A DNA stretch of 64,000 nucleotides, taken from NCBI RefSeq assembly GCF_023806485.1, contig NZ_JAMSLR010000006.1, positions 62,001-126,000 of the forward strand, in the 5' to 3' direction. Positions 22,988-31,663 of this stretch are shown here, piece by piece. The notes beneath the pieces were generated by a model. The model did not search any database. It saw nothing but the letters and a program-made list of their open reading frames with translations, and was not told the DNA's origin. This DNA comes from Thermalbibacter longus (lineage in GTDB: Bacteria > Chloroflexota > Chloroflexia > Thermomicrobiales > Thermomicrobiaceae). The stretch's first letter is position 1, and each line of letters starts with the position of its first letter. A program made the position numbers and the translations under genes.

Positions 22988-25900
22988 CTACACTGCCACC
23001 ATGTAGCGGGCCTTACCCGCGCGCTTCGCGGCGTAGAGCGCCTGGTCGGCCGCCAGCAACAGCGCGCCGGGATCGGTCATCCCCGGGCGGCTATCGGCGA
23101 TGCCGATGCTGGCCGAGATCCGTACGCCCTGCCCCGCGACCACGAACGGCTCTTCGAGCACCTGGATCATCCGCTCGGCCACGATGACTGCATCTTCCAG
23201 TGCCTGGAGATCTTCGAGCAGCACGGTGAACTCGTCACCGGCGAATCGAGCTACGGTATCGCCGGCACGGACGGCTGACTGGAGCCGTCTTCCCACCTGG
23301 ACGAGGAGGTCATCACCAGCCTGGTGGCCGAAAAGATCGTTCACCAGCTTGAAGCCATCCAGATCGACGAACAGAACCGCGATCCGCCGAGATGACCGGC
23401 TCACACGAGCCAGCGCATGCTCCAGGCGATCGAGGAAAAGGGCACGGTTCGGAAGTCCGGTCAGCGCGTCGTGACCGGCTTGATAGCGAAGCTGCTCTTG
23501 CTCGCGCCAGCGCTCGATCGCTAGCCCGGCGAGCTGGGTGGCCAGCTCGATCAGCGTCCACTCACGGTCGTCAGGCCCGCGGGGCTCCCGCGCGTAGAGC
23601 GCGAAGGTGGCCAGCACCTCGCCAGTGCTTCCGAAGACCGGCACCGACCAGCAGGCGCGTAGCCCGTGCGGCAACCCCAGGTGACGGTAGGCCGCCCAGC
23701 GGGGGTCAGTCGCGATGTCCCTCACCATGACCGGTTCCCGGAGGTACGCAGCCGTCCCGCAGCTCCCCTGGTCGGGGCCGATCGGCAGCCCCTCGATCGC
23801 CGCGATGTAGTCCGGGGGCAAGCTCGGGGCGGCTCCGTGGCGCAGGCGTCCCTCCTGGTCGAGGAGCAGAACCGAGGCGAGCAGTTCAGGAGCCTGCTCC
23901 TCGACCAGCCGGCACAGTTGTTCCAACACCTCGCTGAGCGGCGCTTGCTGAGCGATCCGCTCGAGGATGTGAAGTTGCCCGCTCAGCAGGGTCTCCGATC
24001 GCTTGCGCCCGGTGATATCGGTGAGCAGGCCGTGCCAGTACAGCGGCTTCCCTTCCTGATCGCGCAGCATGATCGCGCTGTTCTCCAGCCAGACCCAGCG
24101 ACCGTCCTTGCGCTGGAAGCGGAACTCTACCTTGAACGGCTCGCCCGTCTCGTCGGTACGGGCAGCCTCCACGGCGACCGATGGTTTGTCATCGGGGTGG
24201 ATCCGCTGGAACCAGAGCGCGGGTGTCGATCGGAACTCCTCAGGAGTGAAGCCGGTCACCTCGGTGATCCGCGGGCTGACGAAGAGAATGGGATAGTCGG
24301 GATCGCCAGAGGGCAGGTAATTCGGTTGAGCCGCTGTCACGATAACGGCCGCTGGCAATTGTTCTGCCAGGGTCTGGTAGCGCACTTCCGCTTCCCGGCG
24401 CGCGAGCTCCACGAGCTTCTGCTCGGTGATATCTACGAGCAGTCCTTGCCAATACAGCGGTCGCCCGGCCTCGTCCCGCAGCAGCTCGGCACTGCTCAAC
24501 ACCCAGATGATCCGCCCATCGCGGTGAAGGATGCGGTATTCGACCCGGAACGGCTCTCCGGTCCGATCGGTACGCTCGATCTCCGCCTGGACGCGATCCC
24601 GGTCATCTGGATGGACCAGCCTGACCCACAGGCCGGGATCCGCCAGGTGCTCTTCCGGGGCATAACCGGTAATCGCCTCGATCTGCGGGCTCATGTAGTA
24701 GATCGGATACACGAGTTCGCCATCGTCCCCCCGCACCGGCTCAGCGGCACTGGCATACACCGCAGCCGGGAGCTGCTCGACAAGCGTGCGGTACCGGCGC
24801 TCCGCTTGCTGGAGCGCTGCCTCCACCTGCTTCTGCTCGGTAATATCGACGAGTATCCCCTGCCAGTACAGCGGCCGGCCGGCCTCGTCCCGCGCCAGCT
24901 CGGCGCTGTTGAGCACCCAGACGACACGACCGTCGCGCCGGATCAGCCGGAACTCGATCCGGTACGGCTCTCCGGTACGATCGGTACGCTCGATCTCCGC
25001 AAGCCGTCGCTCTCGGTCGTCCGGATGAACCAGTTTCGGCCACAGCGTGGGATCGTTTTGGAGCTCTTCGGGCGAGTATCCGGTGATCGCGGTGACTTGC
25101 TGGCTGAGGTAGAGGATCGGGTAGACCTGCTGGCCGCTGGGGAGCGTCACCGGCTCGGCTGCGTTGAGGTAGACGGCGGCCGGGAGCTGCTCGACCAGGT
25201 TCCGGTAACGCCGCTCAGCTTCGCGAAGCCTGTCCTCCACTTCCTTCTGCGAGGTGATGTCGAGCAGAAGCTGATGGAACAAGTGTGGTTGTCCGGCTTC
25301 GTTTCGTACGAGCCAGGAATCGTGCAGCACCCAGACCACCCGGCCATCTTTGCGGATCAGCCGGTACTCGACGCGGTAGTTCTGGCCAGCATGCGCAGCC
25401 CCCTGCACGACGGAGAGAACCCTCTCCCGATCCTCCGGGTGGATCGATCGCATCCAGATCCCCAGCGTCGCCCACTCTTCTGGGGTGTACCCGGTAATCG
25501 CCTCGATCTGCGGGCTCACATAGTGCGTGTGGAATCCCAGCACTCCGTCGCTCTGGAGCACCGGCTCGGCATCGACGATTACCAGAGCCGCCGGGAGCTG
25601 CTCGACCAGCGTCCGGTAGCGTTCCTCCGCCTCGCGCAGCCGCGACTCGACCTCCTTGCGCTCAGTGATGTCGAGCAGCAATCCATGCCGATAGCGTGGT
25701 CTCCCAGCCTCGTCTCGCACCACGGCGCTGTCGTGCCACAGCCAGACGACCCGCCCATCCTTGCGGATGAACCGGTACTCAAGGTGGAACTCCTCGCCGG
25801 CCTGCGTTGCACGATCCACGAGTGCCAGCACGTGCTCCCGGTCTTCTGGATGGATCGAGCGGGCCCAGATGCCTGGCGTCTCCCACTCCTGGGGACTGTA

Positions 25901-27664
25901 GCCCGTGACGACCTCGATCCGAGGACTCACGTAGTAGGTGAACCAGCCGGGCACACCATCAGGCTGGAGCTCTGGTTCCGCACTCACGACGATCAGCGCC
26001 GCCGACAACTGCTCGGCGAGGGTCTGGAAGCGGGCCTGGGCCTCGCGGAGCCGGGCCTCGGCTTCCTTCTGCGCGGTGATGTCGATCATCACCCCGTGGA
26101 TGACCTCGGGCTGGTCTGGATCGGGTCGCAGCAGCACCCCGTGGTCTTGCACCCATACCACCCGGCCGTCCTTGCGCCGCATACGGTATTCCAGCGTAAA
26201 ACGCCCCTCGGATGCGAGCGCCTGCTCGATCGCGGCCTCCACCCAGCCACGGTCTTCCGGATGAAGATGCTCGGCCCAGCTCCCCGGAGTCTCCAGCCAT
26301 TCGGCCGGCGTATAGCCCAGGAGTTGCTCCATCTGCGGGCTTACGTACGCGGTCTGCCTAATATCGTCCGCCGGGACCTGGTACACCACCACCGGCGACT
26401 GCTCGACCAGGAGCCGGTACCGCGCCTCGGCCCGCCGCAGGGCGGACTCAGCTTCCTTTCGCGCTGTGATGTCCAGTATGAGTCCCTGCACGTAGAGCGG
26501 CCGCCCGGAGTCGTCTCGGACGAACCGGCCCTCGTCGCGTACCCAGAGCACTCGGCCGTCCCGGGCGATCAGCCGGTACTCCAGCGACTGATCGTGGCCC
26601 TGCTCGACCGCGTGCCGGATCTCTTCCTGCACCCGCGCCGCGTCCTCCGGGTGAAGATGGCGCTTCCAGTTGTCCGGATCTGCCATCCACTCTTCCACGG
26701 TGTAGCCCAGCAGCGGTTCGACCTGCGGGCTCACGTACAGCGGCGCGATGCCGTCGGCCGCGCTGGCGCGGTAGACCACGGCCGGGAGCATCTCGACCAG
26801 CTCGCGGTAACGGGACTCCGCCTCCTGCAGCCGCCGCTCGGTGCGCTTGCGCTCCGTGATGTCTTGATAGCGCCAGAGGTGGCCGATCGGCCCGTCCGGG
26901 CCGTCCAGCGGGACGTAATCGCGCTCCAGCACGCGGCCATCGGCCAGCTCCAGCTCTTCCAGCAGAACGGGCTGGCGCATCCGCACCAGTTCCTCGATCC
27001 GGCTCACGAAGCCCTCGGGGTCGACGAACAGGTGCTTGACAGACGTCGCCGCCTGACGGCAGTCCGCCCCGATGACCGCGTCCGGTTCGGGGATACCGAA
27101 GAGCTCGCAAAACGCCCGGTTCACGCGCACGATCCGCCGGTGCATGTCTTCGAAGAGGATGCCGACTGGCAGAGACCTCAGGAGGAAACCTGTCTGCGCT
27201 CTCGCATCCCGCGTTGCTCTCGTTGCCGAGGATGGGAGCAGCTCGCCCGCCGCTGCTCGTATGTGAGAGGAGCCGGGCACGACCGGCCGATCTTCCAGGG
27301 CCGATGGCCACAGGAGCCACCAGGCGCCAGCAACCCTCCCGTCCGCCAGGACGGGCACGCTGACTACGTCCCAGCAGGTCGAGCCGCTGCGCCCTCGCAG
27401 CAGGAGCGTCCCCCGCTGCGGGGTGCCCCGCAGCGCCGCATCCAGAAGCCGCTCGGCACTATCGTAGTCCGGTGGCGCTACCAAGTCGGCGAGCGTCGGC
27501 CAGGCCGACCTCGATTCATCCAGGTCCAACCGGTCTGCGGCCTCGCCCTCGACGGCGACGACTCGTCCGTCCGGATCCAACCGGATTTGCAAGGGGGCGG
27601 AGCCAGAAAACGATGTATTGTTAGTCTCCTCAAACACCCCTACCCCCCCCCCCTGACCAAACAT
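22988..27664 (-). CDS. Multi-PAS, GAF and GGDEF diguanylate cyclase
   Basis: About 1558 residues. A degenerate PAS-like N-terminus and one PAS domain (LRSLPVGILFEDMHRRIVRV) are followed by seven consecutive PAS_3-type domains, each with YVSPQ or similar, HPEDR and a linker of the ITEQK or ITERK type. Next come a GAF domain and a GGDEF domain with DALTGLPNRALFLDRL, LFVDLDGFKLVND and the active-site loop RFAGDEFTVLL (AGDEF, a variant that is often active). No upstream inhibitory RxxD is evident. The domain copies are similar at DNA level, implying tandem duplication. I chose the ATG at 27664: AAGGAG lies 13 bases upstream, whereas upstream translation looks non-coding. An 11-base G run occupies codons 4-8. 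Confidence 0.9.
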   Translation of the reverse strand: MFGQGGGVGVFEETNNTSFSGSAPLQIRLDPDGRVVAVEGEAADRLDLDESRSAWPTLADLVAPPDYDSAERLLDAALRGTPQRGTLLLRGRSGSTCWDVVSVPVLADGRVAGAWWLLWPSALEDRPVVPGSSHIRAAAGELLPSSATRATRDARAQTGFLLRSLPVGILFEDMHRRIVRVNRAFCELFGIPEPDAVIGADCRQAATSVKHLFVDPEGFVSRIEELVRMRQPVLLEELELADGRVLERDYVPLDGPDGPIGHLWRYQDITERKRTERRLQEAESRYRELVEMLPAVVYRASAADGIAPLYVSPQVEPLLGYTVEEWMADPDNWKRHLHPEDAARVQEEIRHAVEQGHDQSLEYRLIARDGRVLWVRDEGRFVRDDSGRPLYVQGLILDITARKEAESALRRAEARYRLLVEQSPVVVYQVPADDIRQTAYVSPQMEQLLGYTPAEWLETPGSWAEHLHPEDRGWVEAAIEQALASEGRFTLEYRMRRKDGRVVWVQDHGVLLRPDPDQPEVIHGVMIDITAQKEAEARLREAQARFQTLAEQLSAALIVVSAEPELQPDGVPGWFTYYVSPRIEVVTGYSPQEWETPGIWARSIHPEDREHVLALVDRATQAGEEFHLEYRFIRKDGRVVWLWHDSAVVRDEAGRPRYRHGLLLDITERKEVESRLREAEERYRTLVEQLPAALVIVDAEPVLQSDGVLGFHTHYVSPQIEAITGYTPEEWATLGIWMRSIHPEDRERVLSVVQGAAHAGQNYRVEYRLIRKDGRVVWVLHDSWLVRNEAGQPHLFHQLLLDITSQKEVEDRLREAERRYRNLVEQLPAAVYLNAAEPVTLPSGQQVYPILYLSQQVTAITGYSPEELQNDPTLWPKLVHPDDRERRLAEIERTDRTGEPYRIEFRLIRRDGRVVWVLNSAELARDEAGRPLYWQGILVDITEQKQVEAALQQAERRYRTLVEQLPAAVYASAAEPVRGDDGELVYPIYYMSPQIEAITGYAPEEHLADPGLWVRLVHPDDRDRVQAEIERTDRTGEPFRVEYRILHRDGRIIWVLSSAELLRDEAGRPLYWQGLLVDITEQKLVELARREAEVRYQTLAEQLPAAVIVTAAQPNYLPSGDPDYPILFVSPRITEVTGFTPEEFRSTPALWFQRIHPDDKPSVAVEAARTDETGEPFKVEFRFQRKDGRWVWLENSAIMLRDQEGKPLYWHGLLTDITGRKRSETLLSGQLHILERIAQQAPLSEVLEQLCRLVEEQAPELLASVLLLDQEGRLRHGAAPSLPPDYIAAIEGLPIGPDQGSCGTAAYLREPVMVRDIATDPRWAAYRHLGLPHGLRACWSVPVFGSTGEVLATFALYAREPRGPDDREWTLIELATQLAGLAIERWREQEQLRYQAGHDALTGLPNRALFLDRLEHALARVSRSSRRIAVLFVDLDGFKLVNDLFGHQAGDDLLVQVGRRLQSAVRAGDTVARFAGDEFTVLLEDLQALEDAVIVAERMIQVLEEPFVVAGQGVRISASIGIADSRPGMTDPGALLLAADQALYAAKRAGKARYMVAV
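27643..27653 (-). repeat. Poly-G tract (11 G on the coding strand) at gene start
   Basis: Eleven consecutive C on the plus strand, read as G in the diguanylate cyclase mRNA: CAG GGG GGG GGG GTA at codons 4-8. Gain or loss of one base would shift the frame of an otherwise 1558-codon protein. Confidence 0.85.
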
Positions 27665-28240
27665 TATTTCAAATTTTCTCCTTGTTCGAGGATTGGGTTG
27701 AGCCAAACGGCAAGGGGGCATTGCCAACGGGCACATCCCGAACAGTAAGGCTCTATCCACACCTACCTCCGTGGCCGGCTGCGAGGAAGGATTGAGGTAG
27801 GGCCACTTGACAATGAGTCTCGGCAGCATCATCAGACCGCGTTTCTGAAACAGGGCGCGGGCATCCTCGTTGCACATCAGGTCATCCCTTCACAGGACGA
27901 ACCGAGTGCTCACGGTTATCGATCGAGCTGATCGGACAGGACCTCCCACATACAGGAACCCCTTGGTCCACGCTGTCTCACGCGTGCGTTTGGCGGGTCT
28001 CTCACCTCTCCGACGAGACTGTCAACGACGGGCAGCACGTGTGAGAGTCCTACGTACCCATCTTCGGCAATAGCTTTTCGCGTCACCCTAGCCACTTGGT
28101 CCCGAGTGCCCAATAGGCATGTAGGGGGAGGACATATTCGCGCTCCCCGAATCAGCCCAGCTCGGCGACTACCTATTCAGCTACAATCGAGTGAGTGCGG
28201 GCGAACCGGTGAGAGACCAGGCGCTCGCCGAGAGCTTACA
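27665..28240. other. Divergent intergenic region, c-di-GMP operon / CCA-adding enzyme
   Basis: About 575 bp between the minus-strand diguanylate cyclase and the plus-strand CCA-adding enzyme gene. It is less GC-rich than the coding DNA. Frames are open on the minus strand up to 27877 but lack protein-like composition. I found no confident promoter and no clear riboswitch. Confidence 0.5.
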
Positions 28241-29713: not shown

Positions 29714-29890
29714 TCCGGGCGCTGAGCCCTCGAGCTCGCAACGATTGCGTGCTTGCCCACCGTATGAGACGATCATGATCATCGGGCGTGGGAGGGAACG
29801 TCGCTCCTCGCTGTTTCCAGCGGGCACAGTTGCCTGGCGTATCCTCGTGTCGTCGAATGAGCACCCTGGAGTGTGAGGTTTTCGGGCTCG

Positions 29891-30919
29891 ATGGGCGGCC
29901 CGCTCAGGCAGTTTTCTACTCAGCTCCGGACCCGGCGATCCCTGATGCAGGCACTGGTCATGGCGATGTACCTGCCTGTCTTGCTGGCGCACAGCGCGGC
30001 CAATACCCACGTGATCCGCGTGGCCGAGCCACGCGTCGAAGTCCGGAGTATGGGGAATCCCGCCCGCGCACTCGAGCGCATCCGCGACGGGAGCTTCACC
30101 ACGGTCGAGCACCTGAACGACCTGGCAGAGAATCCAGACCTGCGGCCGATCGAGCGCCTCGTCTACGCGAATGCCCCGCTCATCCTCGAGCAGTCCCGTA
30201 TCCTGAACCAGACCCAGAACGTCCTGCTCGGTCTCTTTTACACGACCTCCGTCTCCACGCTGGAAGGGAGCCCAACCCGTACCACGATCCGCTATTACCT
30301 GCACTTCTCCAACGAGCGCGATGGGATGCCGCTCGGGCGTCGCATGGCCCGCTATGGCCACCCCTTCGACGCTGAGCTCGTCTATGCCGCGACGTTCGAG
30401 GGCGAGCGCGTCCTCTCTGCCTACTACCAGGCGCCGAATCACCGGCTAATCCCGTTCAGCCACGAGTACGGGCAGCACCCCGTGTTCGCGATCGCCAGCC
30501 CCAACCACAACTTCCGCCTTGTCCGCCGTGACGACTTGCCCGTGCTAGCCCTGCTTCCCCAGAACGATCTGATCGCGAACTGCTTCCACGACCCCGACTT
30601 CGTCGCGCTGGCGGCACTCGACGCGCTGGCCCAGCACCGGATCGACATCAGCGAGTACGTCTATGTCGCCTTTCAGAATCCGATCCCCCGGAGGGAAGTA
30701 ACCGTCTCGGTTCGCGTACGCGGCAGATGGTACCACCTGCACGAGAAGCTCGGCACCGGCGTTACGGTCCAGGGATATCACCAGATCGGTATCTGGGTCG
30801 GCTTCCAGCCGCAGCCGGACGATATCGAGGAACTGCGAATCACGATCCGTGGGCAACCCTACCCGCAGCCCGAAGTCTTCGCCGTCTATCTCTACGCGCG
30901 GCCGTTCGTCCCCGCGTAG
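29891..30919 (+). CDS. Exported protein of unknown function
   Basis: A 342-residue protein with a basic N-terminus (QLRTRRS) and a hydrophobic core (LMQALVMAMYLPVLLAHSA) that look like a Sec signal peptide with cleavage after HSA. The mature part is strand-rich, with RTTIRYYLHFSNERDG, VLSAYYQAPNHRLIPFSHEY and a C-terminal VFAVYLYARPF. It has few cysteines and no catalytic motif I can name. Start is unsure: GTG 29873 is also possible. It is convergent with the thioredoxin-like gene. I do not recognise a family. Confidence 0.75.
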   Translation: MGGPLRQFSTQLRTRRSLMQALVMAMYLPVLLAHSAANTHVIRVAEPRVEVRSMGNPARALERIRDGSFTTVEHLNDLAENPDLRPIERLVYANAPLILEQSRILNQTQNVLLGLFYTTSVSTLEGSPTRTTIRYYLHFSNERDGMPLGRRMARYGHPFDAELVYAATFEGERVLSAYYQAPNHRLIPFSHEYGQHPVFAIASPNHNFRLVRRDDLPVLALLPQNDLIANCFHDPDFVALAALDALAQHRIDISEYVYVAFQNPIPRREVTVSVRVRGRWYHLHEKLGTGVTVQGYHQIGIWVGFQPQPDDIEELRITIRGQPYPQPEVFAVYLYARPFVPA

Positions 30920-30942: not shown

Positions 30943-31509
30943 TCACGGAACGCGGGCCGCCCAGATCGAGCCGGGGAAGCGATCGAGCAGCCGGCCCCAG
31001 ACACGGTAGAGCTCGTCGTTGGAGTGCGTCTTCAAGTAGACCGCTACACCCCACCAGTACAGCGCCTCCGGCGCGAGCGGTCCATCGGCATCGCGCTCGT
31101 AGGCCCGGCGCAGCAGCTCTATGGCCTCGTCCGTCCTCGCCCACCGCATCGCGACGTGCGCTTCGCCGATGTCGAGCAGCGTCAGGAATAGATCCGGTGG
31201 GAGGAAGTTGACGCTCTGGTAATGCACCGTGCCACGACGATCGGCGAAGAGGATCGTCGGTGTCCAGATCACGTTGAGCGGCCGCAGCACCTGGCGGGGA
31301 TCGGCGAAGAGATCGAGCTGCAGCGGAACGAAGCGGCTCTCTACCGCTTCGATAACGCGGGCATCTGGATACGTCACGGCATCCAGCTTGTCGCAGCCGC
31401 GTCAATCTGGCTTGCGGACGTCGATCAGCACCGGCTTTCGCTCTCGCAGCGATCGCTCGAGCGCCCGGCCGAAGTCCCGTTCCCAGGTGATCGCCCGCTC
31501 GTCACTCAC
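30943..31509 (-). CDS. Thioredoxin-fold protein with in-frame UGA at redox position (candidate selenoprotein)
   Basis: The frame from GTG 31509 (AGGAAGG seven bases upstream) to the stop at 30943 codes for 188 residues, with one TGA at 31402-31404 (codon 36). Around it the protein reads KPVLIDVRKPD-UGA-RGCDKLDAVTYPDARV, then VPLQLDLFAD, WTPTILFAD and a C-terminal TPR-like helical part. This is a thioredoxin-type fold in which the first residue of the C-x-x-C motif falls exactly on the UGA, giving U-R-G-C with Cys39. Only the region after the UGA forms an uninterrupted ORF (from GTG 31377), but that piece lacks the first strand and half the active site. A Cys-to-stop mutation or sequencing error is the alternative. 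Confidence 0.6.
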
Positions 31510-31663
31510 CCCACACCTTCCTCACTGCTGGTCGTGGTACATCGAGGATACAACGCCGGCAGGCGTTCGAACCGATCCGCAAGAGCACCCGAGCTGAGCA
31601 GGGCAGGGGCGCTCGACGGAGAGCCATAGCGCGCTCCCGTGTTGCAGCTTGAACTGCATGTTA

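Follow-up and report, generated by a model that had tools for sequence, protein, structure and literature searches.

The locus lies within a 64,000-nucleotide stretch of T. longus DNA, referred to here as the window. It consists of a minus-strand gene for a thioredoxin-like protein, predicted to be a selenoprotein, with the following features:

30943-31509, minus strand: predicted thioredoxin-like selenoprotein gene of 188 aa, with a GTG start at 31509, a TGA stop at 30945-30943 and a start region common to its homologues
31516-31523, minus strand: RBS-like motif gaggaagg, lying 6 nt before the GTG and read directly from the sequence
31402-31404, minus strand: putative Sec-UGA codon (Sec36 of a U-R-G-C motif), conserved as TGA by 14 of the 15 homologues within the family and by 47 of the 56 relatives from genome_contigs
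31393-31395, minus strand: codon for Cys39, the presumed resolving cysteine, invariant across the 55-row alignment A3
31365-31386, minus strand: candidate SECIS hairpin R1, CUGGAUGC-(CGUGAC)-GUAUCCAG, with arms at 31386-31379 and 31372-31365 and a loop at 31378-31373

Read from the GTG, the frame contains a single internal TGA, at codon 36, followed by Arg-Gly-Cys. A prior sequence-only reading had proposed a GTG start with a ribosome-binding site, protein-like sequence on both sides of the TGA, and a TGA at the first cysteine position of a C-x-x-C motif. Our analysis bears out all of these points: the gaggaagg stretch precedes the GTG, homologues in 15 of the 21 genomes of the family maintain the protein on either side of the codon, and the frame reads U-R-G-C. 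Because the standard code yields only a 35-residue fragment and a shorter internal-start ORF (30943-31377), annotation pipelines may miss the gene or shorten it.

The surroundings of the gene are not conserved. Across 57 loci (the T. longus one and 56 others), any given cluster of neighbours occurs in 9 at most, and the neighbours thus provide no functional clue. In the window, a 348-aa ORF with no Pfam match (29873-30919, plus strand) lies tail to tail with the selenoprotein gene, and a protein with a cobalamin-independent methionine synthase catalytic domain (PF01717; 31639-32829, plus strand) is encoded divergently from it. Farther away, a 1629-aa ORF (22988-27877, minus strand) contains, as judged by eye, many similar PAS-like repeats and a GGDEF-like end.

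The internal TGA is strongly conserved. Within the family, 14 of the 15 genomes with the protein have TGA at this codon and one has TGC (G002, locus L016). A class search covered 158 genomes. In 39 of them it found a relative of full or almost full length, whose Sec36 position is TGA in 29 genomes and Cys in 10; the other matches of this search are weak and short and lie mostly inside larger proteins. One scan of genome_contigs yielded 56 relatives, 47 with UGA and the remaining nine all with Cys. The sequence-only reading had suggested looking for Cys among the homologues at the UGA position, and it is indeed found there (TGC in L016; L087-L093 and others). Judged from these sequences, the recurrence of TGA with intact flanks is far beyond chance. 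On the tree, relatives carry the labels of about nine phyla, as deposited and in many cases for metagenome-assembled records: Thermomicrobiota, Chloroflexota, Planctomycetota (Brocadia, Jettenia), Thermodesulfobacteriota (Geobacter, Desulfobacca), Myxococcota, Acidobacteriota, Gemmatimonadota, Armatimonadota and Actinomycetota. The gene is dispensable, since three genomes (G005, G019 and G020) have selA and lack it. The Cys orthologue of G002 (L016, also L081) sits within the Sec forms. Its genome still has both selA and selB, the SECIS stem persists in weakened form, and the gene looks like the product of a recent change from Sec to Cys.

The host genome does not lack selA, selB or selC, an absence that would have spoken against the sequence-only reading. 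The search for selA, selB, selD and tRNA-Sec found all four: selA at 531 bits (cut-off 267.9), selB at 322.7 bits, or 346.2 with a second piece (cut-off 242.25), selD at 376.3 bits (cut-off 125) and a tRNA-Sec with anticodon TCA. Among the class-search genomes, selA scores above its cut-off in 27 of the 29 with the UGA form versus 3 of the 10 with the Cys form, a difference (Fisher p 2e-4) that is indicative only, because the genomes are related and kinship is uncorrected. Two UGA-form genomes give no full selA match: G129, where a 164-bit piece borders the end of a contig, and G148, which is 64% complete. Other genes with in-frame UGA codons were also observed. In the host, selD itself has one (L045, G000:C1:375586-376518), and two formate-dehydrogenase-like genes have one before His-Ser-Ser (L140 and L141, on G000:C1 and C80), the former with a hairpin bearing a GGUCU loop 3' of the UGA. 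A second thioredoxin-like frame, in genome G136 (L138, G136:C113:3581-3775, minus strand), has an in-frame UGA (NPLGLT-U-NNG) and a weak match to the VPGUxxT family, and it is possibly a further selenoprotein.

Downstream of the UGA, the T. longus gene can form hairpin R1, an 8-bp stem (19-26 with 33-40, counting the T of TGA as 1) closed by the loop CGUGAC. R1 starts 15 nt after the UGA, with 23 nt between UGA and loop, and its folding energy is -11.5 kcal/mol (24 nt folded). The bacterial SECIS model set out in PMC13188914 has a loop of 3-9 nt, a stem of 4-16 bp, a G at loop position 1 or 2, a spacing of 16-37 nt and an MFE of at most -7.5. R1 fits this model with its 6-nt loop, 8-bp stem, G in second position followed by U, spacing of 23 and energy of -11.5 kcal/mol. 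In 36 distinct relatives, assigned to R1 before pairs were counted, the six inner pairs form in every one (36/36), whereas the two outer pairs are often broken (19/36 and 22/36). Pair 23-36 is G-C in 22 relatives and A-U in 14; for pair 22-37 the counts are 30 G-C, 4 A-U and 2 G-U. The covariation score of R1 exceeds those of all 500 shuffles and of all slid versions of the stem, and RNAalifold recovers the six inner pairs unprompted. The number of R1 pairs with two-sided changes (two) is not above shuffles, because few pairs vary; the number of cells with such changes exceeds all 500 shuffles both for R1 and for the second group of sequences described below.

Because the hairpin lies inside coding sequence, part of its conservation reflects protein constraint. 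Pair 23-36, however, links an amino-acid change (Asp/Gly) to a synonymous one (Tyr TAT/TAC), a coupling that, judged from the alignment, is beyond protein constraint alone. Randomising synonymous codons while preserving the protein gave p=0.002 for the T. longus gene region, and some single-sequence randomisations gave p values of only 0.05-0.13. Among distinct Sec sequences with Thr in the loop region, the codon is ACG in 46 of 49, compared with 3 of 9 Cys sequences.

Some relatives form a different hairpin at the same codon. This second register, R2, pairs positions 14-19 with 25-30 and presents the loop UGGAW (UGGAG in one row, L127) 16 nt after the UGA, seven nucleotides upstream of the R1 loop. 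The two hairpins overlap and, because they share nucleotides, are mutually exclusive. Folding energies separate the 47 UGA rows: in 11, R2 is strong (-9.5 to -12.4 kcal/mol) and R1 reaches only 0 to -6.5, whereas the remaining 36 have energies of -6.8 to -13.1 kcal/mol for R1 and of 0 to -2.2 for R2. When alignments A4 and A5 were split by register before pair counting, the 11 R2 rows showed three pairs with two-sided changes (as many or more in 13 of 500 shuffles) and a covariation score that none of the 500 attained; RNAalifold again recovered the hairpin unprompted. Taking both registers together, R1 (at least six of eight pairs) or R2 (at least six of seven) is present in 61 of 61 distinct UGA sequences versus 1 of 10 Cys sequences. 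Nine of the ten Cys-form genes have no hairpin, the exception being L081.

On the protein tree, register requires three changes. Placing all R2 rows in one clade is rejected (p-AU 8e-8), and uniting the two R2 groups of Thermomicrobiota is rejected less firmly (p-AU 0.026). Since a single R2 clade is rejected, the SECIS probably changed register at least twice. We see an even chance that, within one family and at one codon, the SECIS jumped at least two times independently between overlapping, exclusive hairpins (CGUGAC at 23 nt and UGGAW at 16 nt). If so, what SelB requires would be a loop motif whose distance can vary, and not a single invariant structure. Some R2 rows also have a fair R1, among them L118 (-6.5 for R1, -11.4 for R2) and L085 (-6.1 and -12.4). 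In L118, from Gemmatimonadota, both hairpins are fairly stable, and such sequences would show how an in-gene recoding signal can move while its function is kept. By pair counting, five distinct sequences had seemed capable of folding either way, but folding energies put the re-folded ones in R2. A bulged form of R1 can be drawn for Thermomicrobium; at -1.9 to -6.1 kcal/mol it is weak beside R2 (-10.9 to -12.4). We found no report of a SECIS register change in a literature search that took in mainly titles and the openings of abstracts, with most subscription journals outside its reach. With Sec and Cys orthologues at one site and a well-resolved SECIS, the family offers a natural series for probing what SelB requires of hairpin position and loop sequence.

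The sequence-only reading had drawn another structure after the UGA, a 6-bp stem (CGCGGC/GCCGUG) around a 15-nt loop. This stem can form, and 85.6% of its cells are paired in 15 close relatives, but it is very unlikely to be the SECIS. No two-sided changes occur in it among those 15 relatives, 56.5% of cells are paired in the 36 distinct relatives, which is not above shuffles, and neither set shows covariation. Its loop also exceeds the 3-9 nt of the model in PMC13188914, and the predicted fold of the T. longus sequence draws its GCCG into R1. The stem therefore stands as something that can be drawn but, being unconserved, fails as a SECIS; R1 is the conserved hairpin instead.

Two further alternatives concern the codon itself. 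The host genome is an 80-contig draft and one related genome has TGC, so that the TGA might reflect an error in sequencing, or a nonsense mutation that recently made a pseudogene of a Cys gene. We give this explanation hardly any credence: the identical TGA appears with intact flanks in independent genomes of many phyla, and an error is excluded because it cannot recur at one codon. The continuation of homologues past the UGA means that the codon must be decoded, and this would also hold if it were read as another amino acid, such as Trp, or by unspecific readthrough. Such decoding seems highly improbable, however, given that the residue replacing it is Cys in 10 of 10 non-UGA class-search genomes and never Trp, that the gene's own terminator is TGA, that the host has tRNA-Sec(UCA), SelA, SelB and SelD, and that a SECIS-type hairpin lies 3' of the UGA.

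The proposal that the in-frame UGA of this thioredoxin-like protein encodes Sec is thus supported by the conserved UGA at the catalytic position, Cys in relatives, the machinery and a hairpin that fits the SECIS model. We consider it almost certain that the UGA at 31404-31402 is decoded as selenocysteine in a soluble thiol-disulfide oxidoreductase by way of the R1 hairpin, with Sec insertion itself inferred from sequence. SelB carrying Sec-tRNA-Sec would bind the hairpin at 31386-31365, and Sec would be inserted at the UGA instead of termination. From what is known of the thioredoxin family, Sec36 would be the attacking residue and Cys39 the resolving one, with selenenylsulfide chemistry. The enzyme would probably reside in the cytoplasm.

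The read-through protein scores above the Pfam cut-offs for Thioredoxin_7 (35.4 bits, cut-off 27) and Thioredoxin_2 (PF13098; 31.9 bits, cut-off 27), and TPR matches from residue 116 are weak. An AlphaFold model (pLDDT 96.6, pTM 0.92) shows a thioredoxin fold and, after residue 104, about five C-terminal helices. As modelled, the protein is soluble and joins a thioredoxin domain resembling DsbD gamma to a short, helical TPR-like tail. The likeness to DsbD gamma is seen both by profile (E 3e-16) and by structure comparison (Z about 14-14.6, 2.2-3.0 A), and we take the domain cd02953 to be DsbD gamma. It extends to fold and sequence of the C-terminal thioredoxin domain of DsbD (PDB 2fwe, 1uc7), but the T. 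longus protein differs from DsbD in having no membrane domain, Sec in place of Cys, and extra C-terminal helices. The transmembrane beta domain of DsbD is absent from the 188 aa; the thioredoxin domain begins at about residue 8, and the model leaves no space for it.

Two NCBIfam families, TsoB (NF045694) and VPGUxxT type 2 (NF041383), match the thioredoxin domain in part, with scores of 43.1 and 27.6 bits that lie far under their curated cut-offs of 805 and 275 bits. No NCBIfam model scored above its cut-off for the T. longus protein or eight diverse relatives. The chaperedoxin CnoX/YbbN (PDB 3qou, 3qdn) likewise has a thioredoxin domain followed by TPR-like helices. In Foldseek, YbbN/CnoX gave the best E-values, yet the structures superpose poorly (TMq 0.42, rmsd 10-12 A), and none of the 50 matches listed by VIA-align is a CnoX entry, although there may be a likeness. 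According to PMC8129009, the TPR part of CnoX comprises two subdomains with five helices apiece, whereas the T. longus tail has about five helices in all. Were this tail chaperone-like, the family would also count as a selenocysteine version of chaperedoxin-like proteins.

The closest parallel is a selenoprotein family that has already been predicted. PMC13188914 (Table 1) gives a 'Thiol:disulfide interchange protein' family with PF13098, a UxxC motif and WP_011366075.1 as its representative. The same predicted family appears in Geobacter metallireducens, G. uraniumreducens and Syntrophus aciditrophicus in Table 3 of PMC1794560, and 'Trx-like 2' (domain cd02953) is a name for the thiol:disulfide interchange selenoprotein in PMC2398784. 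The T. longus protein shares with it PF13098 above cut-off, the UxxC motif (here URGC) and the likeness to DsbD gamma, and differs from the published members in coming from Thermomicrobiota. Our search of the literature, at the coverage given above, found no report of this protein in Chloroflexota or Thermomicrobiota. We found relatives in Geobacter sp. OR-1 and in a Syntrophaceae genome, which makes a common family likely. The T. longus protein thus probably belongs to this family, to which it is likened by domain, motif and taxa. Its identification places a conserved selenoprotein, probably from a family predicted before, in Thermomicrobiota and several other phyla.
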